Source of the DNA: Armatimonadota bacterium
GTDB taxonomy: Bacteria > Armatimonadota > Fimbriimonadia > Fimbriimonadales > Fimbriimonadaceae
NCBI GenBank assembly: GCA_037138755.1
Contig: JBAXHT010000004.1
Coordinates: 1 to 64,000, forward strand
Direction of reading: 5' to 3'
Length of the DNA: 64,000 bases
The notes under the pieces were generated by a model. The model saw only the letters and a program-made list of their open reading frames with translations. It made no database searches and was not told where the DNA came from. Below are positions 22,210-51,874 of the stretch, piece after piece. How positions within the stretch are numbered: the stretch's first letter is position 1; the number at the start of each line of letters is the position of its first letter. A program made the position numbers and the translations under genes.

Positions 22210-22785
22210 TCAATCTTCGAGCAAAATGACTTCCAGTTTTCGCGGTCCGTGAACGCCCTCGACTCGAACTAACTCGATATCGCTGGTCGCGCTTGGGCCG
22301 CTGATGAAGGTGAGTGGACGAGTCGGGTCCAGACGTTGAAGAGCTTCTTCGAGCGTGGCAACAATCTGGTCAGCCCGGATGATGCAGATGTGATGATCGG
22401 GGATCAGGGTGATCGCTCGCCGTCCCTGGTCGGGTCCGGAGTCGAGCACAATGGTTCCAGATTCCTCGATCCCGACGGCGCACATGGTGATCGTGGTATC
22501 AAATAGCGCTAGATCGGCATGTGAGTAGTCTTTATCGCTTTGGGCCGGAAAGATGAAAAAGTCAAACTGTTCCGGGGTGAGACATTGCTTGTTTTCACAA
22601 AGAGTGGCAAGCAGAGATTCAATATCATTTCGTGTTGTTCGGTAGACAGTCGCGCGATAGTCTTCAACTCGCTCCACAAACGCCTCCAAAGAAGCGGGCC
22701 GTTTTTCCACTGGCACGCGCTTGTGGAGAGCAGGAGTCACGGCCGCCGAACGGATGCGTCTGAGGATGAGTTCCTTACTGTCCAC
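22210..22785 (-). CDS. lutC: L-lactate utilisation protein LutC
   Basis: A 191-residue LUD-domain protein (YkgG/LutC family), the non-Fe-S subunit of the LutABC lactate oxidase. The LUD core spans about residues 45-190, ending in ISGPSATSDIELVRVEGVHGPRKLEVIL, a strongly conserved LutC signature (SATADIE-like and HGP). GTG start 22785 has GGAG 5 nt upstream and overlaps the LutB stop by 11 nt. Last gene of the rhamnose/lactate operon, where it completes oxidation of L-lactate to pyruvate. Confidence 0.93.
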   Translation of the reverse strand: MDSKELILRRIRSAAVTPALHKRVPVEKRPASLEAFVERVEDYRATVYRTTRNDIESLLATLCENKQCLTPEQFDFFIFPAQSDKDYSHADLALFDTTITMCAVGIEESGTIVLDSGPDQGRRAITLIPDHHICIIRADQIVATLEEALQRLDPTRPLTFISGPSATSDIELVRVEGVHGPRKLEVILLED

Positions 22786-24160
22786 GTTTGCTCCACCAAG
22801 TTCGGAATGACTCAGCTGGCACTTCGGGCATCTCCCGAGAATCAGTCCAGCCTTTCACGAGGCCAAGGCCAGAGACAATCGAAACTCCCAAACGCCGCCC
22901 CTTCAGCGCGGCTGAGAACCGGCGATGATCCGACATCATCCAGAAGGCGGCTCGAAACGCCGAGGACTCAGCGGGATTCTTAGCAGTCTTGCCCCGGAGG
23001 TAAGCCAAAACCTCGGGAATGTTGATTTTTACCGGACAAGCCTCATAACACGCCCCGCACATTGAACTGGCGAAGGGAAGTGTGTTTGCGTTCTTGTGCT
23101 CCATTCCTAGCAGTTGGGGAGTGAGAATCGCGCCGATCGGGCCGGGGTAAACGCTACCGTAGGCATGGCCGCCGGTTCGCTGATACACCGGGCAGACATT
23201 GAGGCACGCGGAGCACCGGATGCAGCGAAGGGTTTGGCGCCCAACGGCATCGGCCAAAACGGTCGTCCGCCCATTATCCAGCAGGATGAGGTGAAACTCC
23301 TGAGGACCGTCGCCTGGAGTCACACCAGTCCAGATTGAGGTGTATGGGTTCATCCGCTCAGCGGTGCTCGACCTAGGGAGCAGCCGCATCAGAGTTGCGA
23401 CATCTTCCCACTTAGGAAGAACCTTTTCGATCCCCATAATCGTTACCAGAACCTCTGGTAGGGTCAGGCACATCCGACCGTTTCCTTCGGATTCGACAAC
23501 TCCGATGCAGCCGGTCTCGGCGACGGCAAAATTTGCTCCGCTGACTGCCATTTTGGCTTCCAGGAATTTCTGCCGGAGGTGAGTTCGTGCGATCTCGGCC
23601 AGAGCTGCGGGCTCAGATGTCTCCGCACGAACTCCGAGTTTGGCTTCAAAGAGAGCTCGAATCTCGTCGCGATTCTTGTGAATCGCAGGCACAAGGATGT
23701 GGCTCGGCGAGTCATCTGCGAGTTGACATATGAGCTCCGCCAGATCAGTCTCTAGGGCCGTTATGCCCTGAGCGGCAAGGCCATCGTTGAGTTCAATTTC
23801 ATCACTCGTGATGCTTTTGACTTTCACAACCTTTGACACCTGGTGTGACTTGGCAATCATTGCCACAATCTCGACAGCCTGGGTCGCGGTAGCCGCCCAA
23901 TGAACCTTTCCACCGGCCGCAACCACCTTTTCTTCAAGAATTAGAAGATTCTCTTCTAAGTTGGCGAGCGCCTCGTCCTTCAGCATCGATCCGGCAGTTC
24001 GAGTCTGCTCCCAATCGGCAATCTCGGCGACGACCTTCTCCCGCTTCGAGCAGATTGTTCGGGTCGCAAAGCCCAGATTGTGTCGAAGTGTGCGATTCTT
24101 GAGCGTCTCCCGCGCGGCGTCCGAGAAGGACATCGAGGGCCGGATTCCGCCCCCGCTCAT
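22775..24160 (-). CDS. lutB: L-lactate utilisation iron-sulfur protein LutB
   Basis: A 461-residue LutB/YkgF protein. The N-terminal LUD domain (about 40-290) is followed by a ferredoxin-like region with CIRCSACLNVCPVYQ and a second cluster CGACYEACPVKI, ligating two [4Fe-4S] centres, and a C-terminal hydrophobic/Trp-rich tail. The open frame extends to 24253, but ATG 24160 is the better start: it overlaps the LutA stop as ATGA, has AGGAG just upstream, and the extra 31 residues are encoded inside lutA. The partner genes lutA and lutC flank it. Confidence 0.94.
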   Translation of the reverse strand: MSGGGIRPSMSFSDAARETLKNRTLRHNLGFATRTICSKREKVVAEIADWEQTRTAGSMLKDEALANLEENLLILEEKVVAAGGKVHWAATATQAVEIVAMIAKSHQVSKVVKVKSITSDEIELNDGLAAQGITALETDLAELICQLADDSPSHILVPAIHKNRDEIRALFEAKLGVRAETSEPAALAEIARTHLRQKFLEAKMAVSGANFAVAETGCIGVVESEGNGRMCLTLPEVLVTIMGIEKVLPKWEDVATLMRLLPRSSTAERMNPYTSIWTGVTPGDGPQEFHLILLDNGRTTVLADAVGRQTLRCIRCSACLNVCPVYQRTGGHAYGSVYPGPIGAILTPQLLGMEHKNANTLPFASSMCGACYEACPVKINIPEVLAYLRGKTAKNPAESSAFRAAFWMMSDHRRFSAALKGRRLGVSIVSGLGLVKGWTDSREMPEVPAESFRTWWSKRGQ

Positions 24161-24891
24161 TTGGGCTCCTGCGATGCCAGAACCTCGGCAAGATGGATAA
24201 CCTTCGGGACTTTGCCATCCTTTCGTAGGCCCCCGCCGATGTGCATCAAGCAACTATTGTCGATGGCAACGCAATACTCGACATCAAGCGCGCAGATTGT
24301 TTCGCACTTATCCTGAAGCATCGCGGCGCTCGTGTCGGAGTTCTTCAGGCTAAATGTTCCGCCAAAGCCGCAGCACTGCCACTTCTCGCTCAGCTCCACA
24401 AAATCGAGACCTTGAACTTGGCGGAGTAACTGCTCAGGAGAATCTTTCAGTCCGAGAGCTCGTGCGCCGTGACAAGTTGGATGGTACGTGACCCGATGCG
24501 GGAAGTATGGGTTGAGCACATCCATGCCGCCAAACTTCAAAATGAACTCGCTCAATTCAAATAGCTTTCCGTCCATCTTTGCGGCGCGTTCGATGAGATT
24601 TGAATTCTGTGTCCAATGACCAGCGTGGCCGAACATTTCGCGAACGTTTGCCACACAGGAGCCGCTAGGGGAAACAATGCATTCTGCATCTTCGTAGATG
24701 TCCAGCCAGCGCTCGGCGAGTTGGATCGCTTCATCGGTGTAGCCAGAATTGAGGTGCATTTGGCCACAGCAAGTCTGGCGTGGATCAAACTCGACTGAAT
24801 GTCCAAGACGCTCTAGAATTTCGGTCGTTGCGACACCGGTGCCAGGGTAAAGCGCATCGTTCAGGCAGGTAATGAAGAGCTGAATGGTCAT
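24157..24891 (-). CDS. lutA: L-lactate utilisation protein LutA (Fe-S oxidoreductase)
   Basis: A 244-residue LutA/YkgE protein with the two Cys-rich CCG domains of heterodisulfide-reductase type: RQTCCGQMHLNSGY (about 60-73), and HPTCHGAR with KWQCCGFGGTFSLK (about 137-180). It oxidises L-lactate together with LutB and LutC. ATG at 24891 overlaps the rhamnulokinase stop by 4 nt (ATGA), so lactate oxidation is coupled in translation to rhamnose breakdown, whose lactaldehyde product yields lactate. Confidence 0.94.
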   Translation of the reverse strand: MTIQLFITCLNDALYPGTGVATTEILERLGHSVEFDPRQTCCGQMHLNSGYTDEAIQLAERWLDIYEDAECIVSPSGSCVANVREMFGHAGHWTQNSNLIERAAKMDGKLFELSEFILKFGGMDVLNPYFPHRVTYHPTCHGARALGLKDSPEQLLRQVQGLDFVELSEKWQCCGFGGTFSLKNSDTSAAMLQDKCETICALDVEYCVAIDNSCLMHIGGGLRKDGKVPKVIHLAEVLASQEPK

Positions 24892-26258
24892 GGTTTCGGC
24901 TCAAAACTGATCAGTTGACTACTTCGCCGAACTACATCTCGAATCGAATCGCCTTCGAGGTCGCCTGCCGCGTGAAACTGCATCAGCAGATTCCCCATGA
25001 GAGTTGCCTCAACCGGCCCCGCAACCACTTGCAATCCACTGCGGTCTGCAATGAGTTGGTTCAATACCGAGTTCTGTGATCCGCCCCCGACAATATGAAT
25101 CGTGGTTATCTTTCGGTTAGTCACTCTTGCAACATCCCGAACCAAAAGAACCGTCTTCTCCGCGAGACTCACAAGGATAGCCGCCACGACCTCGGCCTGG
25201 CACGCGTCTCCAATCTCGCTGATCACCCGATCTGGCATGTCTGGGCCAGGTGCGAGAAACTTCGGAAGATCAGGGTCGAACGCCTTCGCTTCTCTCAGGA
25301 ACGGTTTGCTGGATTCAATCAGCGCATCCCAATCCTGCAGATCCCAAGCGCGGGCGCACTCCTGGAGAATCCAAAGACCCATCATGTTTTTGAGCAGCCT
25401 GGTTGTTCCAAACGCACCGCCTTCATTCGACCAACCTTCATTGCCCTCCATCAACGGTGCAGCAAGCTCGACTCCGACTAGCGACCATGTTCCGCTACTG
25501 ACATAGGCGCACGCTTCTGGATCTTCCATCGGAACAGCGAGGACTGCCGAGGCGGTGTCGTGGGTGGCGGGCAGGATAACCTCCGTTTTTGCCAGCCCTG
25601 CGGCTGACTTGAATCTGAAGCTCAGCTCTCCAATGTTCGTTCCTGGCGGGAAGATTTCGGGCATGAACTCTTCCGAGACTCCGCACCACTCGAGTAACTC
25701 TGGGATCCACTTTCCGGTGACTGGACTCAACATCTGCGTCGTGCTCGCGTTGGTGTACTCAGTCCCCCGGTAAGAGGTCATCATATTGTGGAAGACGTCC
25801 GGGATCAGAAACATCTGGTTGTCGGCACCTTCGAGATCGTCTGTCGCGCACTTGAGCTGAAAGAGAGTGTTAAACGGGAGCAACTGCAACCCAGTGAGCC
25901 GGGTGATCATCTCCTTTTCGTCATCGCTCAGCCTGTCCAGCACTCCGTCCGTTCGTGGGTGACGGTAGCAGTACAGGTCCGCCATGATGTCTCCATCGTC
26001 AGAAATTAGTGCGTAATCGACCGCCCAAGAATCGACTCCTACGCTCGCTACCTCGCCGGCTTGACCGGCTATCATGAGTCCTCGAACCGCTTCTTCGTAG
26101 AGCCTGTCGAAGTCCCAAACCGGTCCGTTGGGGGATGTGTACGGAGAGTTCTCGAATCGGTGGACGATTTCGAACTCTAACCGCCCATCGACGATCGTCC
26201 CAACCGCCACTCGGCCTGAGCTTGCCCCAAGATCAATCGCAACTCGTCTAGCGGACAT
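24888..26258 (-). CDS. rhaB: Rhamnulokinase RhaB
   Basis: A FGGY-family kinase (456 residues from ATG 26258; 464 if the in-frame TTG at 26282 is used). It phosphorylates L-rhamnulose to L-rhamnulose-1-phosphate. The N-terminal ATPase motif VAIDLGASSGRVAVG, the catalytic region GVDSWAVDYALI, the ATHDTASAVLAVP motif and the second-domain IVGGGSQNSVLNQL nucleotide-binding loop match RhaB. The start overlaps the stop of the aldolase gene; the downstream gene is lutA. Its place between rhamnulose-1-P aldolase and the lactate genes fits the pathway order. Confidence 0.94.
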   Translation of the reverse strand: MSARRVAIDLGASSGRVAVGTIVDGRLEFEIVHRFENSPYTSPNGPVWDFDRLYEEAVRGLMIAGQAGEVASVGVDSWAVDYALISDDGDIMADLYCYRHPRTDGVLDRLSDDEKEMITRLTGLQLLPFNTLFQLKCATDDLEGADNQMFLIPDVFHNMMTSYRGTEYTNASTTQMLSPVTGKWIPELLEWCGVSEEFMPEIFPPGTNIGELSFRFKSAAGLAKTEVILPATHDTASAVLAVPMEDPEACAYVSSGTWSLVGVELAAPLMEGNEGWSNEGGAFGTTRLLKNMMGLWILQECARAWDLQDWDALIESSKPFLREAKAFDPDLPKFLAPGPDMPDRVISEIGDACQAEVVAAILVSLAEKTVLLVRDVARVTNRKITTIHIVGGGSQNSVLNQLIADRSGLQVVAGPVEATLMGNLLMQFHAAGDLEGDSIRDVVRRSSQLISFEPKP

Positions 26259-28326
26259 ATGCGGTTGGGACGCCACCGTCAACAGTCAGGACTCCACCGG
26301 TCGTCTTGCTACTCGCTTCGCTAGCAAAGAAGTAGGTCGCCGCGGCGATGTCTTCGGGGAGGATATTGACCTTTAAGGTCGTCCGCTTTCGATAAAACTC
26401 TTCGAGTTCTTCGGGCTGAATTCCGTAGGTTGCCGCTCGTTCAGCTCGCCAAGTGCCATCCCAAATCCCTGAACCCGACAAAACACCATCGGGCATCACG
26501 CTGTTAACACGAATACCAAACGCTCCGCCTTCTTCGGCAAGGCAGCGGGCCATGTGCAACTCGGCAGCTTTAGCTGCACTGTAAGCAACGGCGTTCTTTC
26601 CGGCAGCAACGCTGTTTTTGGAGCAGATGAAGATGATGTTTCCACCTGAGCGCTGTTGCTTGAACACTTTGAATGCTTCCTTGGCGACCAGGAAGTAGCC
26701 CGTCGAAAGAATGCTGTGATTGAGGTTCCAAGTCTCCAGCGACGTTTCCTCGATGGGAGCGCTCGATGCGATTCCCGCGTTGTTCACTACGATGTCGATT
26801 CCGCCGAAATAGGAGATCGACAAGCAAAATGCCTTGCTGACGGATAGCTCGTCCGTGACGTCCATCGAAAGCGCAATGGCACGACCTTCTCCAAACTCCT
26901 TGATGAGGTCCTCCGCAACTTTTTCTCCACCCTCACGGTTTCGGTCAGCGATCACAACGTGTGCACCTTCAGCCCCTAGCTTCCGGGCGATTGCACGTCC
27001 AATCCCGCTTGCCGATCCAGTTACCAACGCAACCTTCCCAGCAAGAGGCTTGGGAGCAGGTTTGAGACTGAGTTTGTACAGCTCAAGCGGCCAATATTCG
27101 ACTCCGAAAGACTCGGCTGCCGACAATGAGACGAAACCACCCATTCGGGCGGCATTTTGCATCGTGACGATTGCGCGGTGGTAGAGCTGCCTCGAAACGT
27201 TTGCGGCTTGGGCGTCGACGCCCACAGTGATCATTCCAATACGCGGAATCAATATCACACGTGGGGTCGGCGCAAACATTGATTGCCCTTCCGACTTGTT
27301 CGCTTGAAAATACGCAGAATAAGCAGTTGTGAATTCCTCAAATGCGCCGGAGACTTTCGATTTGAGTTCTTCCAGCCCTGTTTTAGGCGTCCAATCAACA
27401 AACATTGGGAGCATCTTTGTGTGTACCAAGTGGTCGGGACATGCGGCTCCGATTTGCGACAGTTCTCGGGCTTGAGAAGAATTGACGAAATCCATAACTT
27501 CGGGAGAGTCATCGCATTTCAGTACAACTGGGCCGTATTTCGAAATTGCTCCGCGCAGAATAGGCAGGATTTGGAGCAAGTAGGCTCCGCTTGACGTCTC
27601 TCTGGGCAACGTTGTCTCCTCTTGAGGAAGTGGCGAAAGCGTATTGAGATAGTCCTGAGCTTCAGCGATGATCCGGATTGTGTTGGCGTAGCATTCCGCC
27701 GAAGTTTCGCCCCAGGTGACGAGGCCGTGTTTACCCATGACGACGCATTCGAGCTTAGGGTTATTCCGAACGGCAGCTCCGATCTGTTGACTGAGAGTGA
27801 AGCCAGGGCGAATGTAGTCGACCCAAGCCGCTCTCTCGCCGTAAATCTTCCCCATGATCTCCTTCCCATTTGGGGTGCAGGCAATCGAGATGATGGCGTC
27901 AGGATGGGTGTGGTCGACGTGGGGGGCCGGGACAAAGGCGTGAAGGAGGGTTTCGATGCTTTGGCGCGGTCGGCCCCGCTCATAAACGGTCATATCCAGG
28001 TAGGCAATCATGTCCTCATCAGACATTTCGGGACGCTCGAAGAGCGGTTCAATTTCGTCCTGTTTGAGCCCCGCGAATCCACTAGCGGTGATGCCGGCAA
28101 TGTCGGACCCAGAGCCTTTGACCCAGAGGACACGACAAGGTCGCCCCATATGATCAATCCCATCGGCTTTTGTGCTCGTGTTTCCGCCATAGATGTTCAC
28201 CAGCGTTCGGTCGCTTCCAAGTAGCTGAGATCGGTAAACAAGTGCTTCTAACCCTTCTGAAGCCGGAGCTTCTGACGGATTCCATCGATTTTCTACCTTC
28301 ACCATGTTATTCACTTGGGTACCCAC
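26248..28326 (-). CDS. Bifunctional rhamnulose-1-phosphate aldolase / L-lactaldehyde dehydrogenase (RhaEW-type)
   Basis: A 692-residue fusion. The N-terminal class II aldolase/adducin domain spans about residues 25-270 with a metal His pair (HVDHTHPDA near 135-143, [10 protein letters not shown] near 198). The C-terminal SDR domain, about 430-692, has [23 protein letters not shown] and YSAAK. The aldolase splits L-rhamnulose-1-P into DHAP and L-lactaldehyde; the SDR oxidises the aldehyde to L-lactate with NAD. This architecture is known as RhaEW (for example B. subtilis YuxG). Start is uncertain: GTG 28326 overlaps the isomerase by 20 nt, or ATG 28305. Overlaps rhaB at its 3' end. Confidence 0.93.
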
Positions 28327-29488
28327 CTCCAGCGTCGGTCACACCCCGTTCGTCGGCGACTTTATCCGTGTACGCTAGGGCCTCCTCAAAGGGGTTCTCC
28401 GGGAGCCCGTTCGACACTCGCCACGCTTTGAGAATTTCTTGAACATCCGTCTTGAAGGCATTGTTCAGAATCCGGTGCGCTCCAAGCACATCGCCACTTG
28501 CTTGGCGATCTCGCAACACCGCTTGGTCAACGAGCAGGGCTTTTGCGTACGCCTCTTGGCAGTTTAAGACGCTTTGCAGCATGGCCTCCATCTTCGGTTC
28601 GATGTTGTGGCTTTGGTCGATCATGTACGCGACCTTGCCTGCTGTTTCCGAGGCTAGGGAATCCGCGGATCGCTCTGCCGAGACGAGCTCGTGATAGATG
28701 CAGAACAGCTCATACGGGTTGGTGCTGCCAACGATGAGGTCATCATCGGCATAGCGCCGCGCGTTGAAGTGGAACCCACCGAGCTTTCCTTCGTCGAGAA
28801 GGAACGAAACAATCGCCTCAATATTGGTGCTTTGGGCATGGTGACCCAGGTCAACAAGAACTTGAGCTTTGTCTCCCAGTGCCACGCAGTGGCTGAGCGC
28901 AGCGCCCCAATCGAAAGAGTCTGTATAGTAGAAAGCTGGTTCAAAGAATTTGTATTCGAGAAGCATGCGCGACCCTTCTGGAAGGGCGTCATGCACAACT
29001 TGCAAAGCCTCTCGGAAGAACTTTTTTCGCTTGCGAAGGTCATCTTGTCCGGCGTAGTTTGTGCCATCCGCAAACCATAGGCTCAGGTCCTTTGAGCCAG
29101 TCTTCTTCATGATCTCGACGCACTCGAGCAAGTGGTCGACTGCCATCGTTCTGACGGCTGAATCGGGATTGGTGACCGAGCCAAGCTTGTAATGATCTTT
29201 TTGGAACAGATTTGGGTTGATTGCACCAACGGTGATCCCCTTCCGAGCTGCATAGTCGCCTAGCTCCGAGTAGTTCTCAACCTTGTCCCAAGGAATGTGC
29301 AAAGCGATGGAGGGCGCAATTCCGGTCAGACGGTGAATTTCTGCCGCATCGTCAACCTTCTCCCAAACGGTCCGGGCGGCACCGGGAGCAGCGAAGGTTT
29401 TGAACCGAGTACCAGAATTTCCGTATCCCCAGCTCGGAGTCTCGATTCTTTGGGCTGAGAGTGCGTTGAATAGCTCAATCTGATTCAT
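28307..29488 (-). CDS. L-rhamnose isomerase (RhaI type)
   Basis: A 393-residue (beta/alpha)8 sugar isomerase of the Pseudomonas-type L-rhamnose isomerase (RhaI) group, not the longer RhaA of E. coli. Metal-binding residues are recognisable in [35 protein letters not shown] and the [11 protein letters not shown] region. It converts L-rhamnose to L-rhamnulose. It overlaps the regulator stop upstream by 14 nt and the aldolase start downstream, so it is first enzyme of the operon and first of the pathway. Confidence 0.94.
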
Positions 29489-30281
29489 GGCAGTGTTGGC
29501 TCGGATCTTCGTTAACGATTAGGCGGACGTCCTCACGCTCGAGGGCTTCTCTCAGCTCTCTCGAGGGCTGGCGATCTGTGATTAGGACATCGATTTCGTT
29601 GAGTTTAGCCGTACTAGCCAAGGCGCGACGACCTATTTTGGTGTGATCGATGAGAGCAATTTTTAGGGATCCTCCCTTCAGAAGCGCACGTTTAGTATCT
29701 GCCTCCTGTGGATTTGGATCGGTGAATCCGTCTTCGACGGTGAATCCGCCGCTGGAGAAGAAGACCTTATCCGGGTGGAGGCGGCTGAGGGATTCAATGG
29801 CGGTTGCTCCAACGAATGATCTTGCTTTCGCGTGGAAGAACCCGCCGCAGACAAAGAAGTCGATGGGTGAATTCATCACCGCTTCAACTGAGTCGAGTCC
29901 TGTGAGGATCGCTCGAACTCGCCGGGCGGGGAGTATTCGGGCCAGTGCCAAGGCACTCGTGCTTGCATCCAGTCCAACTGAGTCCCCGTTCTGAACCAAC
30001 TCAAGCGCGGCGAGTGCCATGCGGTCTTTCGCGCTTGCTTGGACAAGCGAGCGCTGCTGGTAGCTTTCTTCTTCTGCCGCGTGTTCGCGGAGGCGCGCTC
30101 CACCGTGGATTCGTTCGATTTGACCAAGTTCGGCGAGGTGGTCGAGTTCTCGCCGAATCGTCATCTCACTCACCGCAAATTCGAGGGCAAGTTCGCGGAT
30201 ACGTACCGTTCGCTGCGCGAGCACTCGCAACATGATTTCATCCTGTCGCGATCCGCTCACTTGAACCGGCTTTGTTAGCAT
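29475..30281 (-). CDS. DeoR family transcriptional regulator (RhaR-like)
   Basis: A 268-residue DeoR-type repressor. The HTH spans about residues 16-65 ([22 protein letters not shown], then HGGARL, a DeoR signature), followed by the DeoR C-terminal sensor domain (about 90-250) with [29 protein letters not shown] and [12 protein letters not shown]. It leads the rhamnose operon and probably represses it and the divergent transporter. Some Bacilli use a DeoR-type RhaR for rhamnose genes, so the ligand is likely a rhamnose phosphate intermediate. ATG has TAATTT 6 nt upstream. Confidence 0.92.
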
Positions 30282-30381
30282 CTGATGAAATTATTGCACA
30301 ACTTCACAACACGCGTAAGTTAAACCATTCAAAGTTGCTGTACGGTTTTGTCCGTATGCTATATTTACGTTTCACCGCAAG
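30282..30381. promoter_or_regulatory. Divergent rhamnose promoter region with dyads
   Basis: The 100-bp gap between the regulator and the transporter genes. Leftward: TAATTT (30293-30288) 6 nt before the DeoR ATG. Rightward: TATATT (30360-30365) with TTGCTG at 30335-30340 as weak -35. Possible operators: TACGG-N6-CCGTA (30341-30356), lying between -35 and -10, and an inverted CAACTT (30299-30304)/AAGTTG (30332-30337) pair. Which element binds the DeoR protein cannot be decided by eye. Confidence 0.45.
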
Positions 30382-31908
30382 TTGGAATCCTTGAAGCAAG
30401 ACATCGCCGTTTTGGACCCTCATTCTCCCGGGCTATCCGCTTCGGATATCTGCTTGTCGTTCGCAGGATTTCAAGTGCTCAAGGATGTGAATATTCACAT
30501 TCTTCCTGGAAAAATCCATGCAATCACTGGCGAAAACGGGGCGGGAAAATCTAGCCTTGGAAAGGTCATTGCTGGACTCTACAGGCCGGACAGTGGCTCC
30601 GTCGAGCTGAATGGCAAGGCACTCAGGCTGAGTTCTCCGCGTGACGGACTGGCGAGTGGGATCGCCCTTATCCATCAAGAACCTTTAGTGTTTCCCGACT
30701 TGTCGATTGCAGAGAATATTCTTGCTGGGAACCTTCCTATCCGCGCTGGGCAGGTCGATTGGAACAAGGCGCTGGAAGTCTCAGCATCGATGTTGCGTCG
30801 TCTGGGCGCAGAGATGGATGTTAGTCGTTTGGCGGGAACGCTTTCTATTGCCGATCAGCAGCTTTTGGAGCTTGCTGCCGCGCTCTCCCACGACGCAAAA
30901 GTGTGGATTTTTGACGAGACGACCGCTCCGCTCACTCCTTCCGAGGTCAAAGAGTTGTTCGTCGTCATGCGCGAGCTTCGAGATCAGGGGTGCTCTATCG
31001 CCTTCGTATCGCACCACCTGGATGAGGTCTTTGAGATCGCCGATGAGATCACCGTGTTGAGGGGCGGAGAGCGCGTTGCACACTTCCAGACGAGTAAGAC
31101 CACCCCCGCTGAAGTCGTGCGAAACATGGTTGGAAGAGATGTGGGCGCCACTGCCCGAGAGCCGAGAAAAGTCGCAACTGAACAAGCCATATCAGTAGAA
31201 CAGCTTTCAGGTCCTGGCTTCAGCAATGTTTCTTTTGAGCTTCAAGTCGGAGAGATTCTAGGACTTGCAGGGTTGGTTGGCGCAGGAAGGACCGAAGTTG
31301 CAAGAGCCCTGTTCGGGATCACACTTCCATCCTGCGGCACCATCACGCTATTTGGACTGCCTTTTTCTCCTAAGAACCCGCAGGACTCAATCGCGCGCGG
31401 AGTGCAGCTCGTCCCAGAGGACCGTCGTGGAGCTGGGTTGATGCTCGAACGTTCGGTCTTAGACAACGCTTCTTTGGTGCAACTCAGGATTTTTGGTGGT
31501 GCGCTTGGGCTTCTGAACCGTAGTCAACAGGAGGCGAAGGTGGAGCCGGTTTTAACTCGCCTCAGAACCGCCTTGCGTTCGACTCAGCAACTCGTGGGGC
31601 AGCTCAGTGGCGGAAACCAACAGAAGGTCGTTCTTGCGAAATCGCTCCTAAAAACACCGAGGATCATTATCTTGGACGAGCCGACGCGGGGCGTTGATAT
31701 CGGAGCCAAGTTCGATGTCCACTCCCTGATTCGCGAACTTGCTGACTCGGGCGTTTCAGTGATCCTAATCTCGAGCGATCTTTCCGAGGTGCTGAGCCTG
31801 TCCGACCGGATCGCGGTCATGCGACGCGGCTCAATGGTTGGAATCCTTGACGGCACACAAGCTACCCAAGAAGCGGTCGTCGCGCTGGCAAGCGGAGGTG
31901 AAGCTTGA
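30382..31908 (+). CDS. Rhamnose ABC transporter ATP-binding protein
   Basis: A 508-residue double ATPase of the carbohydrate-uptake CUT2 class (RbsA/XylG/RhaT-like). N-terminal domain: Walker A GENGAGKSS, LSIADQQLLELAAALS signature region and Walker B as VWIFDETTAPL. C-terminal domain: degenerate Walker A GLVGAGRTE, signature LSGGNQQKV and IIILDEPTRGVD. TTG start at 30382; no strong Shine-Dalgarno is seen. It is divergent from the rhamnose enzymes and overlaps the first permease start (TTGA). Substrate L-rhamnose is inferred from context. Confidence 0.92.
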   Translation: MESLKQDIAVLDPHSPGLSASDICLSFAGFQVLKDVNIHILPGKIHAITGENGAGKSSLGKVIAGLYRPDSGSVELNGKALRLSSPRDGLASGIALIHQEPLVFPDLSIAENILAGNLPIRAGQVDWNKALEVSASMLRRLGAEMDVSRLAGTLSIADQQLLELAAALSHDAKVWIFDETTAPLTPSEVKELFVVMRELRDQGCSIAFVSHHLDEVFEIADEITVLRGGERVAHFQTSKTTPAEVVRNMVGRDVGATAREPRKVATEQAISVEQLSGPGFSNVSFELQVGEILGLAGLVGAGRTEVARALFGITLPSCGTITLFGLPFSPKNPQDSIARGVQLVPEDRRGAGLMLERSVLDNASLVQLRIFGGALGLLNRSQQEAKVEPVLTRLRTALRSTQQLVGQLSGGNQQKVVLAKSLLKTPRIIILDEPTRGVDIGAKFDVHSLIRELADSGVSVILISSDLSEVLSLSDRIAVMRRGSMVGILDGTQATQEAVVALASGGEA

Positions 31909-32852
31909 AGTTGCGGCTCGGCGTGGGTGCTGGTTTGCTGGTAGCGGCCTACCTATCCGCTCCTAGGCTGTTTACCAGTGGTTCGCTCAATTCGATTCTG
32001 CTCCTTCTTCCGCTGATTCTGACGGTCGCCTTGGGCGAGTTCCTCGTCGTAGTAACGGGCGGAATTGACATCTCGGTAGGCTCCATCCTAGGTTGCTCGG
32101 CAATGACATGCGGCGTAGCGCTCAAGGTGCGGCCAGACTTGCCTATTCCGGTTTGCTTCTTCCTCGGAGCAGTCTGTGGCATAGTACTCGGAGTCGTCAA
32201 CGGGCTTCTCGTTGCAAAGGCCAATCTTTCGCCGCTCATCGTCACAATTGGGACATTGGCATCCTTCCGAGGGCTTGCATTTTTGATTGGGAGCGGCGAA
32301 ACGGTGACTGGAAGTTCGGTGCCAGATTCATTGACGAGTCTTTCGAACCGTGGGTTGACCCTCGGTCCCGTGACCGTGAGTTGGCTGGCTGCGCTTTGTT
32401 TGACTCTGACTGTCGCAACCGCTTGGTTCGTGAAGTATCGACCGCTAGGGAGGGCCTTGTATGCCTTCGGAGGACAACCCGAAGCCGCCGTTCGTCGCGG
32501 AATCTCGTTGAGTGGAGTTCAGCTGTTTGCCTACATATTCAGCGGACTCATGGCGGGAATCGCTGGAGTCATGTATCTCTCGCGGTTCGGTCAGGTACAA
32601 CCCGGCGCTGCGGGGAGCGGATTTGAACTCACGGTCATCGCTACCGTCGCAATCGCCGGAACCAAACTCACTGGCGGGGCCGGTCGTATCGCAAATGTAG
32701 CTCTAGCTGCACTTTGCATGGCGGCAATCACAGTCAGCCTGAGCACGCTGGGAATCGATACGAACTGGCAATTGCTCGTTTACGGTTTAGTTCTTCTAGT
32801 GATGGTTTGTAGCGACGGCCACCGTCGGAATCGGGAGACGTTGATGGCATGA
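31905..32852 (+). CDS. Sugar ABC transporter permease 1 (CUT2)
   Basis: A 315-residue integral membrane protein with about 8-10 helices, RbsC-like. Typical features: GGIDISVGSILG (about 50-61), VNGLLVAKANLSPLIVTIGTLASFRG and the cytoplasmic EAA-like loop with ALYAFGGQPEAAVRRGI. TTG start overlaps the ATPase stop (TTGA). It pairs with the following permease as a heterodimer, the usual layout of rhamnose CUT2 transporters (RhaP/RhaQ). Confidence 0.92.
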   Translation: MKLRLGVGAGLLVAAYLSAPRLFTSGSLNSILLLLPLILTVALGEFLVVVTGGIDISVGSILGCSAMTCGVALKVRPDLPIPVCFFLGAVCGIVLGVVNGLLVAKANLSPLIVTIGTLASFRGLAFLIGSGETVTGSSVPDSLTSLSNRGLTLGPVTVSWLAALCLTLTVATAWFVKYRPLGRALYAFGGQPEAAVRRGISLSGVQLFAYIFSGLMAGIAGVMYLSRFGQVQPGAAGSGFELTVIATVAIAGTKLTGGAGRIANVALAALCMAAITVSLSTLGIDTNWQLLVYGLVLLVMVCSDGHRRNRETLMA

Positions 32853-33799
32853 AGAAGAACATTCCTCCGCTTCTCCTTTGTCTACTGGTTCTATTCATTG
32901 GATGGAGGGTTTCTCCCAATTTTCTTGATGCTGCCTATTTGCGAGACTCTGCGACTCTAATGGCCGAGATCGGAATCATCGCCATTGCGATGAACTACGT
33001 GATCGCGGCGGGCCAGATTGATCTGAGCGTTGGCTCGAACATGGTTCTGACGGCCTGCGTCACCGCCAAACTCCTTCAATGGGGATTACCGATCCCGTTG
33101 GCGCTGATCGTTGGAGTCGGGTTCGCCGCCCTCCTGGGCTGGCTCAATGGACTCCTCATCACCTACTTTCAGGTGCCTTCCTTCCTAGTCACGGTTGCGA
33201 CGCTTGCCATCTTCCGTGGTGCGGCGAAAGCACTACTCGGGCCAGCTTCAGTGAAGGCACCTGCGAGTCTAGTTGGCATCGACACTTCAACGATGGCTTG
33301 GCTAACTGTGCCGTTATGGATTCTCTTGGGATTTGGTTTGGCTTCGGTGATTGTCCTCAACCGAACGGTTTTTGGAGCGTGGGTGCTTGCTGTGGGTTCC
33401 AATCAGCGGACGGCGTTCTACTCGGGAGTTCCGGTTTCGAAAGTTATCCGCTCGACCTTTCTGATCTCTGGGATGTTCAGCGGTGTCGCGGCGCTCTTGA
33501 TGCTCTCTCGGCTAGGAATCGCCCGCGCCGATCTGGCGAATGGAGCCGAGCTCGACGTCATCACCATCGTCGTGGTCGGCGGAACTCTGATTCAGGGCGG
33601 ATCTGCGAATGTCATCGGCTCGATGTTGGCATTTCTGATGATTAGCCTTCTGCGCACTGCCATGGGAGTCGCCAGCGTCACTGCTGAGTATCAGATGACC
33701 ATGATCGGGGCTCTCCTTGTGATCGCCGTGCTTGCTAAAAATGTCAACATACGGATACCATCCCGGAAACGATCACCCATCGGGCAATCAGTGCCATGA
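32849..33799 (+). CDS. Sugar ABC transporter permease 2 (CUT2)
   Basis: A 316-residue permease related to the preceding one: AAGQIDLSVGSNMVLTA, WLNGLLITYFQVPSFLVTVATLAIFRG and the coupling loop WVLAVGSNQRTAFYSGV. About 8-10 helices. ATGA overlaps at both ends (with permease 1 and with the binding protein). Presumed to form the membrane channel together with permease 1. Confidence 0.92.
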   Translation: MKKNIPPLLLCLLVLFIGWRVSPNFLDAAYLRDSATLMAEIGIIAIAMNYVIAAGQIDLSVGSNMVLTACVTAKLLQWGLPIPLALIVGVGFAALLGWLNGLLITYFQVPSFLVTVATLAIFRGAAKALLGPASVKAPASLVGIDTSTMAWLTVPLWILLGFGLASVIVLNRTVFGAWVLAVGSNQRTAFYSGVPVSKVIRSTFLISGMFSGVAALLMLSRLGIARADLANGAELDVITIVVVGGTLIQGGSANVIGSMLAFLMISLLRTAMGVASVTAEYQMTMIGALLVIAVLAKNVNIRIPSRKRSPIGQSVP

Positions 33800-34863
33800 A
33801 AACAAAAACCGCCTCCCTTGCACTCGCCATTATTTCGCTGTCGCTCGTTGTCGGCTGCGGAAGCACGAAAGATTCATCGGCACCCTCGACGACTGCACCG
33901 ACGACTTCGGCAGGGGCGAAGACTAAATTGGTGTTCATCCCCAAGAGCGCGGGAAATCCTTACTTTGCTCAGGTCGAGTCAGGTTTCAAATCAAGCGCCG
34001 ACCAGTTTGGAGTCGATTTCACGTCCCAAGCGCCGAGTTCGGCAGACGCTACGTCGCAGTTGTCGGTGATCAAAGATCAAACTCAGCGCGGAGCAGAGGT
34101 GATCGTGATTTCTCCGAACAGCCCGGATGCACTGAACGAAACTCTCGACCAAGCGGCCGCTAAAGGGGTCGTGATCATCACTGCCGACTCAGACTTGACC
34201 GGAAACGAATCGCACAGATCCGTGGGAGTTGTACCCGTCGATTTTTCGACCATCGGGCCCGAGCAAGTTGAGCTTCTGGGTTCGCAGATCAACTACGAAG
34301 GCGAGATCGCGATTCTGAGCGCAACCAGCGATGCTCCGAACCAGAACGCGTGGATTGAAGGCATGAAAAAAGCGTTGGCCGAGCCTAAGTTTGCAAAGAT
34401 GAAGCTAGTCGAAATTGTCTATGGTGACGACGAACCCCAGAAGTCAACCACGGAATGCGAAGCCCTATTGACCAAGCACCCGAACCTCAAGGGCATGATC
34501 GTCCCAACTTCAGTGGGGCTTGCGGCAGCGGCCCAAGTTCTTACTCAAAAGGAGATTGCACCGGGAGCCAAGAACGCCAAGAGTGGAGGGCTGGTGCTTA
34601 CGGGGCTCGGCACTCCGAACGAGCTTCGTAAAGCCGTCGAATCTGGCGTGGTTGCCAAGTTCCAGCTGTGGGATCCTGCCGATATCGGAATCGTTGCCGC
34701 GTACGTTGGGACTCAGGTTAAGTCCAAGAAGTTAGATGCCAAGCCTGGAACCAAGTTTGAAGTCCCCGGAAAAGGGTCTTTCGAGATCAAGGAAAAGAAC
34801 ATCGTAGTGGCCGGAAAACTGGTCACGTTTTCAAAAGAGAACATCGGGCAGTACAAGTTCTAG
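33796..34863 (+). CDS. Rhamnose substrate-binding lipoprotein (RhaS-like)
   Basis: A 355-residue periplasmic-binding-protein type I fold, CUT2 class. Lipoprotein signal with lipobox LVVGC (lipidated C21), then a Ser/Thr/Ala-rich linker (about 22-42) and a ribose-binding-protein-like core (KLVFIPKSAGNPYFAQVESGF, VIVISPNSPDAL, VVIITADSDL). It captures the sugar outside the membrane. Last gene of the transporter operon, ATGA overlap with permease 2. No terminator is apparent after it. Confidence 0.92.
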   Translation: MKTKTASLALAIISLSLVVGCGSTKDSSAPSTTAPTTSAGAKTKLVFIPKSAGNPYFAQVESGFKSSADQFGVDFTSQAPSSADATSQLSVIKDQTQRGAEVIVISPNSPDALNETLDQAAAKGVVIITADSDLTGNESHRSVGVVPVDFSTIGPEQVELLGSQINYEGEIAILSATSDAPNQNAWIEGMKKALAEPKFAKMKLVEIVYGDDEPQKSTTECEALLTKHPNLKGMIVPTSVGLAAAAQVLTQKEIAPGAKNAKSGGLVLTGLGTPNELRKAVESGVVAKFQLWDPADIGIVAAYVGTQVKSKKLDAKPGTKFEVPGKGSFEIKEKNIVVAGKLVTFSKENIGQYKF

Positions 34864-48302: not shown

Positions 48303-48587
48303 ATGCCCGCTCCTTCTGATGACTGGAGAGCCGTGGTCGGCTATGCAATCTGGATTCTCAGCTATGCGGTGCGAAGGCTTTTAGTCTCTCTGTATCCCTA
48401 CCATAGCGGCGTCCTCAATGGTGACTGGCGGCTTCTAGATTTCGGGCTCACCCTCTTGTTGACCTTGGCTGCATCGCTTTGGTTTGCGAAAGTTGTCCCC
48501 GTACCCAAATCTCGTCCTGAGTTTGTTTGCACGTTATGGTTCCTCACCCGTCTTTTCTGGGAGATGACTCGTCCAACATTGAGTTAG
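48303..48587 (+). CDS. Small hypothetical membrane protein
   Basis: About 94 residues from ATG 48303 (an in-frame ATG at 48267 would overlap the divergent DinB leader). Three hydrophobic stretches: AVVGYAIWILSYAV, LLDFGLTLLLTLAASLWFA and VCTLWFLTRLFWEM. No family recognised. Its stop overlaps the convergent regulator stop by 4 nt. Weak support; it may be real because its frame stays open against the dense neighbours. Confidence 0.5.
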   Translation: MPAPSDDWRAVVGYAIWILSYAVRRLLVSLYPYHSGVLNGDWRLLDFGLTLLLTLAASLWFAKVVPVPKSRPEFVCTLWFLTRLFWEMTRPTLS

Positions 48588-49504
48588 GCTGGGTCGAGCA
48601 CTTTCTGCAATACCGCGTCAGCAAACTGCTCTAGAGAAGTCGCGAGGAAGTCTGCGCCCTCTTCTAAGAACCGCTTCGGATCGCGGTTAACGATTCCTCC
48701 ACCGACGCCAATCTTTGGCACTTCCGCTCCAGACCTCAACGAGACGAGTTCTCGGATCATTCGGAGCGTCCATTCCGCACCTTCGTCGTGGGAGCAAGAT
48801 ACCAAGACTAGGTCTGGGCGCGAATCGGATACTTCTCGAATAAAGCTTGGAATGGGAACATTTGCCCCAAGGAACCTAACGGACCAGTTCTGACTAGTGA
48901 GGTAGTCGGAGAGCATTCGCAACCCAATCGTGTGGTGATTCTGCGGGGCAGCACCGATGACGGCGACCTTTGCCCCCGGTGCCGGCGAACCAAGATAGTT
49001 CATGATCCGAGTCATCTGCCTTTCGGTGATCGAACTCGTCATGTGCTCCTGGGCTTCGTCGATGGCTCCCGACATATACCAAGCGCCAATGGTCGTCATC
49101 GACGCGCCTAGAAGTTGTGTATAGAGAGTAATGAGATCTCGGCTTGTTCTGAGAGCTTGATCGACGATTCGATTGCACTCGCGTTCGTCGCCTCGACACG
49201 CCGCTCGGGCAAATGGAACGACGAGATCCAAAATGCTTGCTCCATCGTTACCATCCGTTGTCGTTCGGATGATGGCATTGAGCGCGTCCTCAACTTCGGC
49301 CCGAGCGATCGAATAGTAAATGTGTCTTCCAATCCGATTTGCTGAAACAATCCCTTTCGCTCTCAAGCGTGCCAGGTGATTACTGACGTTCGGTTGGCGA
49401 AGACCGGTGGATTCGACGAGTTCGTTGACGCTCCTAGAGCCATCCATCAAGTTCATCAGGATCGCACGCCGGGATTGCTCGGAGATTTCGTCAAAAATGC
49501 TCAT
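48584..49504 (-). CDS. ArsR-type HTH fused to cobalamin-binding domain (transcription regulator)
   Basis: 306 residues from ATG 49504 (AAGGA 6 nt upstream; the frame beyond is discarded). Residues about 1-80: winged HTH of ArsR type (SRSVNELVESTGLRQPNVSNHLARLRAKGIVSA). About 85-175: helical B12 cap with IG-x2-Y-x9-EH (Y143, E153, H154). About 178-300: Rossmann cobalamin-binding domain with NHHTIG (N189, H191, G194), the DxHxxG-type site with Asn in place of Asp/Glu, plus VGGGIVN. The layout recalls CarH/LitR photoreceptors, which use a MerR HTH instead. An inverted repeat at its promoter suggests autoregulation. Divergent from an acyl-CoA dehydrogenase. Confidence 0.88.
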   Translation of the reverse strand: MSIFDEISEQSRRAILMNLMDGSRSVNELVESTGLRQPNVSNHLARLRAKGIVSANRIGRHIYYSIARAEVEDALNAIIRTTTDGNDGASILDLVVPFARAACRGDERECNRIVDQALRTSRDLITLYTQLLGASMTTIGAWYMSGAIDEAQEHMTSSITERQMTRIMNYLGSPAPGAKVAVIGAAPQNHHTIGLRMLSDYLTSQNWSVRFLGANVPIPSFIREVSDSRPDLVLVSCSHDEGAEWTLRMIRELVSLRSGAEVPKIGVGGGIVNRDPKRFLEEGADFLATSLEQFADAVLQKVLDPA

Positions 49505-49522
49505 TCGGTTCCTTCTTAGAAT

Positions 49523-49546
49523 ATACATCAGCATTGACTGATGTAT
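49523..49546. promoter_or_regulatory. Operator-like inverted repeat at ArsR-B12 promoter
   Basis: ATACATCAG (49523-49531), spacer CATTGA, CTGATGTAT (49538-49546): perfect 9-bp arms. On the minus strand it overlaps TATATT, a likely -10 of the regulator gene, and lies 19 nt upstream of its ATG. Size and symmetry match ArsR-family operators. Confidence 0.75.
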
Positions 49547-49681
49547 CTCGTTGTTCAGGCTTTTCACGAAATGAAATTCGTATAAATAGGAAACTGCCAA
49601 CTTGAGGGAATACGCCACAATAGGATGCTTGCTTACAATGTTGTTACAGGCGACGTAGATCAACGAGGACTTATACCAGAG

Positions 49682-50797
49682 ATGTTTTTGAACCTAGAAT
49701 CCGAAGACTTTGCCTTTCTCGAAACCGTTAAAAAATTCGTTGCGGAGGAAGTTCTGCCCAACACCCGAGCTTGGGAAGAAGCAACTGCTTTCCCAGACGA
49801 AATTTGGACCAAGATGGGTGCCATCGGCCTCTTGGGGATGACGCTTCCGAGAGAGAAGGGCGGAACCGGATGTTCGACGATGGCTTATGTCGAGGCTTGT
49901 CGCGAACTTGCCAAAGGCGACCCCGCACTTTCGATGAACGTTGCCGCTGTTAACGCGCTCTGCGTTGCTCACTTCGACCACTTTTCAACTCCTGAGCAGT
50001 GCGAAAAGTATCTCCCTGGCATTCTAAAGGGTGAGATCAAATTGGCTTGGGGACTGACAGAACCGGATGCAGGTTCAGACGCTCGCCGAGTGCGAACCAA
50101 GGCTGAGCCAACCGATCAAGCAGGCATTTACAAGATCAACGGCCGGAAAATGTTCATCACCAATGGTGGCAAAGCAGACCTGATCGTTCTTATTGCAAGA
50201 ACAAGCGACACTGAGCTTTCAGCGTTCTTGATGGAAACCAACCAGCCCGGATTCAAGCTGGAAAAGCGAATCCACACGGTTGGCGTTTCGGCATCCAACA
50301 CGGTTCAATTCGCACTGAATGACGCGATCGGCTGGCACACACCATGTACGTTCGAGCAGGCAATTGGTTTGCTCTACAGAGGGCGACTTGGAATCGCAGG
50401 CATGGCTGTGGGAATCGCTGAGAAGGCGTATGAACTCATGCTCGAATACTCTAAAGGTCGCGAACAGTTTAACCGCCGGCTCTGTGACATGCAGTCCGTC
50501 CAGAACATGATTGCGGATTCCGCGATGGAAGTCGAGGCGGCTCGCCTGTTGCTCCACAAGGGAGCGACCAACATGGACAAGGGCCTTCCTGTCGTTCTGG
50601 AAAGTTCGTACGCGAAGCTGTACGCTTCGGAAGCTGCAAACCGAGTGACCAACCGGGCGATTCAGGTTCACGGCGGACGCGGAATGACCAGAGAGTTCTT
50701 GGTAGAAAAGCTTTGGCGCGATGCTAAATTGACGGAAATTGGTGAAGGTTGCTCAGAAATTCAACGGCTGGTCATCGCAAAGCAAGTCTTGAAGTAA
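49682..50797 (+). CDS. Acyl-CoA dehydrogenase
   Basis: 371 residues from ATG 49682, where the normal N-terminal helix begins; an extra 19 residues up to 49625 look non-domain. A flavoenzyme that forms the alpha,beta double bond of acyl-CoA. Motifs: AWGLTEPDAGSDA (FAD/substrate loop), KMFITNGGKADL, AIQVHGGRGMTREF and the C-terminal GEGCSEIQRLVIAK with the usual catalytic Glu. Divergent from the ArsR-B12 regulator, from which it may be controlled. A -10-like TATAAA is at 49581-49586. No beta-oxidation partner gene is adjacent. Confidence 0.93.
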   Translation: MFLNLESEDFAFLETVKKFVAEEVLPNTRAWEEATAFPDEIWTKMGAIGLLGMTLPREKGGTGCSTMAYVEACRELAKGDPALSMNVAAVNALCVAHFDHFSTPEQCEKYLPGILKGEIKLAWGLTEPDAGSDARRVRTKAEPTDQAGIYKINGRKMFITNGGKADLIVLIARTSDTELSAFLMETNQPGFKLEKRIHTVGVSASNTVQFALNDAIGWHTPCTFEQAIGLLYRGRLGIAGMAVGIAEKAYELMLEYSKGREQFNRRLCDMQSVQNMIADSAMEVEAARLLLHKGATNMDKGLPVVLESSYAKLYASEAANRVTNRAIQVHGGRGMTREFLVEKLWRDAKLTEIGEGCSEIQRLVIAKQVLK

Positions 50798-50806
50798 TAA
50801 TGTAGC

Positions 50807-51874
50807 ATGGCTATTACCGCTATCGCGCTTCTTTTGGCGTCCTCTGGGCGCCAAGACGGAATGATTGAACTCGGGCGCAAGTTCGTTGCCGGAGAAAAAC
50901 TGGTCTACGTTACAAAGGCCGAGATCACCGACGAGCAAAGAAGCGGCGACCTGCAAACGTTTATTCCTCACGACGAGTCATATTCGTATCGCCACACGCT
51001 GGATGTTCAGAAAGTGAAAGCCGACGGGATTGCGGAACTCCTATACACCCGCCCGACCATGTTAGTCACTCTGGGCGATACCGCTGAAGCTGCCGCGAAG
51101 ACGACGACGCAAAAGCTGGATTGGAAGCTTCAAATGGACGTAAGCCCCGTGAATGAGGTTCTTGAGATGAAGGACCTTACTCCGAAGAAGGCGGATGCTC
51201 CGAAGAAGAATGACGGTGTGCAGTGGTTGCGATCAAAAGGAATCCAGGGCTCGGAGGCGGACGGAACCGCGGTCGGACTTCTATTCTCCTTTGTCGGTGA
51301 GGTTCAGCGACTGGCCTTCTTCATTGGAGGATTCGATACGTCTCTTGATATATCTCCACGGATGCCCTTTGAAGAGATCAAAGTCGGCGACACGTGGCAA
51401 CGAACGGTCTCTGCGACGCCGCAAAAACTGAAGGGCCAAGGGGACAAGATGGGTGTCCAAAGGTTGGACTACACCTACACCTATAAGGGGATCACTAAGA
51501 GCACCGAAGGGAAGGAGATTCACCGGATTGAGGCAGTTGTGAAACTTGATACCGACATGGCAGAGTTCGCCCGGCAGCTAACGAAGTCGTCAAAGTCGAG
51601 TACATCACTCAAGACCGTTCCCCTGAAGTTTGACGCTAAGGTGAAATACGATCTCGACCTCAAGACCATGCACCTCTTAAAGGCGGCTGCCGAAAGTTCC
51701 GGGAGCTTTGCCATTGAGGTGAAGGGCGTTTATCAGCCTTTGCTTGAAGATCGGTTCAGAGGGCGGACCTTGGTGAAGCTGGAGTCTTGGACGAAACCGG
51801 GTGACGCAAAGCCCAGCACGGCAAAGCCCGGAACGAAGTCGACGACCAAGCCTGGCAAGAAAGGCGGCGGCTAA
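50807..51874 (+). CDS. Secreted hypothetical protein
   Basis: A 355-residue protein with a short N-terminal hydrophobic segment (residues 1-14) and a mature part rich in strands: GEKLVYVTKAEI, LYTRPTMLV, FEEIKVGDTWQRTVSATP, YTYTYKGITK, LDLKTMHLLKAAAESSGSFAIEVKG. The last about 35 residues are Lys/Thr/Pro-rich, perhaps wall-associated. It resembles the DUF6263-type periplasmic proteins, but I am not certain. It begins 9 nt after the acyl-CoA dehydrogenase stop. Confidence 0.72.
   Translation: MAITAIALLLASSGRQDGMIELGRKFVAGEKLVYVTKAEITDEQRSGDLQTFIPHDESYSYRHTLDVQKVKADGIAELLYTRPTMLVTLGDTAEAAAKTTTQKLDWKLQMDVSPVNEVLEMKDLTPKKADAPKKNDGVQWLRSKGIQGSEADGTAVGLLFSFVGEVQRLAFFIGGFDTSLDISPRMPFEEIKVGDTWQRTVSATPQKLKGQGDKMGVQRLDYTYTYKGITKSTEGKEIHRIEAVVKLDTDMAEFARQLTKSSKSSTSLKTVPLKFDAKVKYDLDLKTMHLLKAAAESSGSFAIEVKGVYQPLLEDRFRGRTLVKLESWTKPGDAKPSTAKPGTKSTTKPGKKGGG

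Follow-up and report, generated by a model that had tools for sequence, protein, structure and literature searches.

The stretch of DNA analysed here (hereafter the window) covers 64,000 nucleotides of an Armatimonadota contig, and a gene on its reverse strand encodes an ArsR winged helix joined to a complete cobalamin-binding domain (CBD), a combination referred to as ArsR-CBD. The gene, the parts of its product and the features beside it are the following:

48584..49504, reverse strand: gene of the ArsR-CBD regulator (306 aa and a stop codon), starting with ATG at 49504 in agreement with orthologues
49265..49501, reverse strand: ArsR-type winged helix, residues 2-80 (HTH_5, NF033788, structural match to CzrA)
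49010..49213, reverse strand: four-helix CBD cap, residues 98-165, with GAWY-x9-EH (PF02607)
49076..49078, reverse strand: Tyr143, aligned with CarH Trp131 (residue counts in 47 sequences)
49043..49048, reverse strand: Glu153-His154, aligned with CarH Glu141-His142 (46/47)
48647..48964, reverse strand: Rossmann part of the CBD, residues 181-286, with NHHTIG and GANVP (PF02310, structure matches)
48923..48940, reverse strand: NHHTIG, with His191 as predicted lower axial cobalt ligand (His in 45/47)
49523..49546, no strand: operator candidate, a perfect 9-bp inverted repeat, ATACATCAG-N6-CTGATGTAT (genome search, shuffles, motif tests)
49682..50797, forward strand: divergent acyl-CoA dehydrogenase, likely target, start set by comparison with L035 (alternative ATG at 49625)
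50807..51874, forward strand: conserved gene next in line behind the acyl-CoA dehydrogenase, a possible further target, matched in 26/47 loci

A Shine-Dalgarno-like sequence, AAGAAGGAA, precedes ATG 49504 and, together with the orthologue starts, favoured this start over a 359-aa open reading frame with a TTG start that runs through the operator candidate, which was rejected. The fusion of an ArsR HTH with a B12 domain, proposed in a preliminary description of this DNA, was borne out, since the ArsR model and both B12 models of Pfam exceeded their curated cut-offs: HTH_5 at residues 10-54 (45.7 bits vs. 22), B12-binding_2 (PF02607) at residues 98-165 (40.2 vs. 23) and B12-binding (PF02310) at residues 181-286 (69.5 vs. 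32.1, 3e-19). The ArsR/SmtB model NF033788 of NCBIfam gave 69.4 bits (cut-off 55), and by Pfam and NCBIfam the head is ArsR, with no MerR HTH in the protein; the CarH equivalog of NCBIfam, for which 400 bits are needed, reached 32.9 bits. As the protein carries neither a MerR head nor an intact Wx9EH (it reads Yx9EH, with W in 10/47 orthologues), ArsR-CBD is not a CarH, though it may well work like one. The HTH, the cap and the Rossmann part are the sole Pfam domains within the 306 aa, a globin-like biliverdin domain being absent, and the match to the AppA Pfam model reached an E value of 0.18 only. The recognition region QPNVSNHL of the head is conserved across the family alignment. In an AlphaFold2 model built from 33 family sequences (mean pLDDT 89), residues 1-86 matched the ArsR repressor CzrA with a Z of 15.3. 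The head therefore resembles ArsR/SmtB proteins (CzrA, CmtR, SdpR) in score and fold, but it lacks their metal-binding cysteines, no Cys being found in residues 1-100, and it is followed by an extra CBD of 210 residues.

ArsR-CBD is a conserved family and not a single case. The search of relatives for the same fusion and operator, suggested in the preliminary description, returned 47 distinct fusion loci, all from Armatimonadota as far as their origin is known, and for 17 of 35 a candidate site next to the regulator gene. Among 101 related genomes, the full-length fusion was present in about half of those of the same family and in three elsewhere in the phylum; one locus (L074, from a 'Fimbriimonas sp.' MAG, matching G016) belongs to the same genus as the window. 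When 84,980 species of bacteria and archaea were scanned, the fusion came up only in Armatimonadota, so far as the records give an origin, and in a few mislabelled MAGs; outside the phylum, matching CBDs were joined to other partners. That ArsR-CBD stands in for CarH was rejected as a rule, since four genomes (G004, G005, G013, G019) carry both. At the loci of relatives that were inspected, the neighbours of MerR-CarH, as recognised by eye, are fasciclin-like genes in L184 and L185 and phytoene synthase/desaturase-like genes in L192. No description of the ArsR-CBD fusion was found in the literature searched, an earlier mention being possible in surveys of CBD or photoglobin architectures; CBDs joined to various HTH domains have been mentioned in general terms (PMC11796333).

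The CBD of the window protein groups with photocobilin/photoglobin-type and stand-alone CBDs, away from MerR-CarH, and tree, HMM and structure thus depart from its initial description as CarH-like. In a maximum-likelihood tree of 67 CBDs, 20 of 22 ArsR-CBDs formed one clade (100/98) sitting among photoglobin-type, stand-alone and XRE-linked CBDs, and the branch parting this whole group from MerR-CarH was supported at 86/90. MerR-CarH formed a clade of its own (100/99), on which ground a head swap onto a CarH CBD was rejected. The divergent sequences L068 and L069 lay outside the ArsR-CBD clade, and a single ArsR fusion is therefore not proven. With the CBD family HMM, photoglobin-type, stand-alone and XRE-linked CBDs of other phyla scored 126-179 bits, a set found with ArsR-CBD family patterns and hence favoured towards high scores, whereas MerR-CarH of the same phylum scored 42-93 bits, corrinoid proteins 61-80 and MetH 32-40 (40 for MetH of the window genome). 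Corrinoid methyltransferases or MetH-type proteins as nearest kin were rejected on their separate clades and on the MetH scores. Foldseek ranked full-length TtCarH first (5c8e, E 1e-13), followed by CtMerR and photocobilin, and structural alignment of the C-terminal part gave Z values of 25.8 for photocobilin (rmsd 2.0 over 209 residues), 24 for CtMerR, 22.6 for MetH, 20.9 for CarH and 20 for the AppA SCHIC domain. By sequence and fold together, the nearest PDB relatives are CtMerR (8JBS/8JBT), photocobilins (8J2W/8J2X/8J2Y) and CarH, the CBDs of all of which have been reported to be light-responsive (PMC11796333, PMC10979010).

Photocobilins and photoglobin-linked CBDs share with ArsR-CBD the closest fold, an NHHxIG-type motif and high family HMM scores, but ArsR-CBD has no globin or biliverdin domain, carries an ArsR head and has Tyr in place of Trp. 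CtMerR, second-closest in fold, is a light-responsive CBD without an equivalent of His132 (PMC11796333); it differs in its MerR head, its Trp156 and a full set of the signature motifs considered below. The CarH/LitR proteins of MerR type have the same overall fold, with a DNA-binding head followed by a four-helix cap and a Rossmann CBD, and share the EH pair, the lower-ligand His and GxxxP with the window protein. The latter differs from them in its ArsR head, in three residues (Trp131 to Tyr, His132 to Met, Asp/Glu to Asn), in a CBD outside the MerR-CarH clade, in an acyl-CoA dehydrogenase in place of adjoining carotenoid genes, and in its candidate operator: TtCarH and BmCarH recognise 11-bp direct repeats in tandem (PMC9304148), the window site being an inverted repeat. 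Further non-MerR heads were seen by eye on the type of CBD found in ArsR-CBD: in L146 (5839-6747, Fimbriimonadales) and L118 (5854-6903, Planctomycetota) the CBD is followed by a C-terminal XRE-type helix-turn-helix, and L139 (Clostridiales) has an N-terminal XRE head.

The Glu-His pair of the cap is the one that contacts the adenosyl group in CarH, and it is kept in 46/47 family sequences, as are the Gly and the Pro of GxxxP (46/47 each), while the lower-ligand His is kept in 45/47; the equivalents of E153, H154, H191, G213 and P217 are thus retained in 45-46 of 47. The motifs of the window protein, G140-A-W-Y143-x9-E153-H154 in the cap and N189-H-H191-T-I-G194 in the Rossmann part, read as previously described, but the Tyr and the Asn, then taken as peculiarities, turned out to be normal for the family. 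The column of CarH Trp131 holds Tyr in 33 of the 47 sequences, Trp in 10 and Phe in 2, with Trp as the preceding residue in 33 (Trp142 in the window protein). At the Asp/Glu position of the classic B12 motif, 32 sequences have Asn, 11 Ser (together 43/47), 3 Glu and 1 Gly; Asn or Ser at this position also occurs in photoglobin-type CBDs elsewhere. No His was found at the CarH His132 column in any of the 47, and a bis-His light state like that of CarH is therefore unlikely in this family.

The published signature of light-responsive CBDs consists of GxxW, EH, GxxH and GxxxP (PMC11796333), and all four motifs are present in 6 of the 47 family members, among them L093 (Armatimonadetes bacterium Uphvl-Ar1, genome CP021423), whose gene also adjoins an acyl-CoA dehydrogenase. 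Two of them occur in the window protein, EH (E153-H154) and GxxxP (G213-A-N-V-P217); GxxW is replaced by G140-A-W-Y143 (intact in 10/47 orthologues) and GxxH by Q188-N-H-H191, where the ligand His is kept but the Gly, present in 30/47, is not. The loss of His132 need not end a light response, since the residue is Arg in CtMerR, whose Glu moves under illumination to bind cobalt through water (PMC11796333). TtCarH H132A remains mostly tetrameric in light (PMC10442372), and Myxococcus CarA, which resembles the window protein in keeping EH and missing the CarH Trp, differs from it in its MerR head, has lost the flanking residues and is B12-independent (PMC9304148). This evidence cuts both ways and leaves moderate confidence in light sensing. 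In the same genus, at locus L066 (G012:C33:55700-72600), EH has become YR and the lower-ligand His is Cys, and the acyl-CoA dehydrogenase no longer adjoins the regulator although the next gene does; L066 is possibly a natural loss-of-cobalamin variant.

The 24-bp inverted repeat at 49523-49546, placed 19-42 bp upstream of the ArsR-CBD start codon, occurs once in the 3.27 Mb genome when up to three mismatches are allowed, and never arose in shuffles. The two nearest relatives preserve its arms (ATA[C/T]ATCA...CTGATGTAT) and differ in the spacer, the far-side DNA and much of the nearby DNA; the same comparison revealed a second conserved block on the acyl-CoA dehydrogenase side of the intergenic region. 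Coding dS was saturated between the window and these relatives, and dN/dS therefore gave no ratio. The family form of the motif is ATAnATCA-N8-TGATnTAT, and an unconstrained search of 35 orthologue upstream regions converged on Ac..ATca-N8-TgATgTAT. With the window and the two loci closest to it held out of training, the motif reached a log-likelihood of 108.5 (75.5-84.9 in 15 shuffles), showed an unforced symmetry (r 0.50 vs. at most 0.20 in shuffles) and ranked the window repeat first in 20 kb, with 16.2 bits against 9.2 for the next site. In leave-one-out scans of roughly 17 kb around each regulator, the best site fell within 150 bp upstream of the regulator in 17/35 loci, against 0.36 expected at random positions, an expectation that the AT-richness of promoters lifts to perhaps 2-4 by our estimate, still far below 17. 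The motif recurs at distances that vary between -30 and -120 relative to the start codon, and roughly half of the 35 loci show it weakly or not at all. The perfect 9-bp-arm repeat was confirmed, while its supposed overlap with the likely -10 is only plausible: TATATT at 49520-49525 overlaps a repeat arm, and no sigma-70-like promoter passed the promoter scan. A -10 at this position would leave a leader of about 9 nt, so that the protein may block elongation instead. The repeat was rejected as a terminator, as no real T-run follows the hairpin on either strand. A second operator-like site, ATAAATCA-N8-TGATATAT with one mismatch, lies in the same genome (G000 C3:111022-111045, L153), 65 bp upstream of a pilin-like gene; it is the sole other site with at most two mismatches and was judged a likely chance occurrence, and a wider regulon was accordingly rejected.

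A gap of 177 bp separates the regulator gene from the divergent acyl-CoA dehydrogenase, whose orthologues (58-96% identical over the compared stretch) are likewise divergent and adjacent, at 72-300 bp, in 29/47 loci. The suggested link of the regulator to its own operator and to this gene is thus supported by comparative data, namely the motif tests and these loci. The pair survives in L040, L043 and L065, which have lost other gene order, and synteny across loci extends to further genes of the region. The acyl-CoA dehydrogenase groups with short-chain enzymes; its best NCBIfam match is acryloyl-CoA reductase, below the cut-off of that model, and its PDB matches include butyryl-CoA dehydrogenase. 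The gene that follows (50807-51874) encodes a conserved protein of unknown function with no NCBIfam match, and FadB-like and ETF genes lie downstream of the regulator in some loci. The window genome contains a PduO-type adenosyltransferase, which makes adenosylcobalamin (AdoCbl), and methionine synthase as the only other PF02310 protein. Methylmalonyl-CoA mutase was not found in it, nor in many orthologue-bearing genomes, so that a B12-cofactor logic for the acyl-CoA pathway is missing there and regulation of the mutase was rejected. Among the genes adjoining ArsR-CBD, none was recognised as light-related (carotenoid, photolyase).

We propose that ArsR-CBD may act as a one-component regulator, which would bind the 24-bp repeat as an ArsR-type dimer, repress its own gene and control the divergent acyl-CoA dehydrogenase across the gap. 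The C-terminal domain would hold AdoCbl with His191 as lower ligand, and Glu153, His154 and Tyr143, aided by Trp142, would face the adenosyl group. The AdoCbl form would keep the DNA-binding shape in the dark; light would break the Co-C bond and rearrange the cap, thereby releasing repression and placing acyl-CoA oxidation under light control. This scheme draws on the computed domain make-up, the conserved pocket residues, operator motif and synteny, and the PduO-type enzyme of the genome. Binding of the repeat is very probable, and binding of cobalamin equally so, while for light as the natural signal the balance is close to even and leans, if at all, towards acceptance; repression, AdoCbl as the bound form and the direction of the switch are what we infer. 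The complete scheme, in which an ArsR autorepressor binds AdoCbl, has acyl-CoA oxidation under its control as well and is released when light breaks the Co-C bond, has, in our judgement, an even chance of being correct. The light reading is supported because the nearest PDB relatives of the CBD are reported to respond to light, and weakened because the window protein has two of four signature motifs and because CarA, without the Trp, works without B12. Given its conserved DNA site and its fat-oxidation neighbour, ArsR-CBD may link light or B12 to fat metabolism. More tentative, and somewhat short of an even chance, is the view that ArsR-CBDs form a B12 photoreceptor family of their own, distinct from MerR-CarH and confined to Armatimonadota; its photocobilin-type CBD would drive an ArsR repressor, and acyl-CoA oxidation would be directly light-controlled, with Tyr for the adenosyl-facing Trp and no bis-His light state.

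The same pocket could instead report cofactor supply, with AdoCbl or another cobalamin as ligand and light incidental. A conserved site with Tyr in most members in place of the adenosyl-facing Trp, and without His at the His132 position in any of them, is consistent with such a cobalamin-status sensor, and AdoCbl metabolism beside acyl-CoA oxidation would be sensible where methylmalonyl-CoA mutase is present; yet, as the mutase is missing from the window genome and many others and methionine synthase is the only other PF02310 protein, the link between acyl-CoA and B12 metabolism is lacking there, and the nearest fold relatives are light-responsive, so that we regard this explanation as rather unlikely. 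Retention of the CBD fold for dimerisation or protein interaction, with repression independent of B12 as in CarA, is improbable: CarA has lost four Trp-flanking residues besides the Trp that is also missing here, but the window protein retains G140 and W142, and although L066 has neither EH nor the lower His, the near-complete conservation of both (46/47 and 45/47) argues for retained cobalamin binding.

The least probable of the alternatives, in our view, is that the CBD senses something else, such as methyl- or hydroxocobalamin, cobalt redox state, oxygen, or haem as in AppA SCHIC. The structural matches to the haem-binding SCHIC domain and to methionine synthase (Z 20 and 22.6) would fit such a ligand, against which stand the E value of 0.18 with the AppA Pfam model, the retained adenosyl-contacting EH pair and the 40 bits of the window MetH with the family HMM. 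The repeat, in turn, might be a leader RNA hairpin or a chance repeat, and the gene pair a reflection of conserved chromosome order; it lies 19-42 nt before the start codon, its counterpart in the nearest relatives could fold with a single G-U pair, further genes of the region are syntenic and AT-rich promoters favour any AT-rich motif. This is quite improbable, as the motif was recovered in leave-one-out tests at distances varying from -30 to -120, its symmetry arose unimposed, and the regulator/acyl-CoA dehydrogenase pair outlasts other gene order in L040, L043 and L065.

If the proposed light-released repression is right, B12 sensing domains have been coupled to DNA at least once through a non-MerR head, with a different operator architecture (an inverted and not a direct repeat) and next to a gene of metabolism instead of photoprotection, and the protein would offer a compact ArsR-type part for green-light gene control. 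With its natural Trp, Tyr and Phe pocket variants and the decayed L066, the family also supplies material for asking which residues give a cobalamin domain its light sensitivity. Elsewhere in the window, at 22210-34863, lies a sugar-catabolic block with an aldolase/SDR fusion, a sugar kinase, an isomerase, a DeoR-type regulator, an ABC sugar transporter and LutABC-like genes, which by eye resembles a rhamnose pathway.
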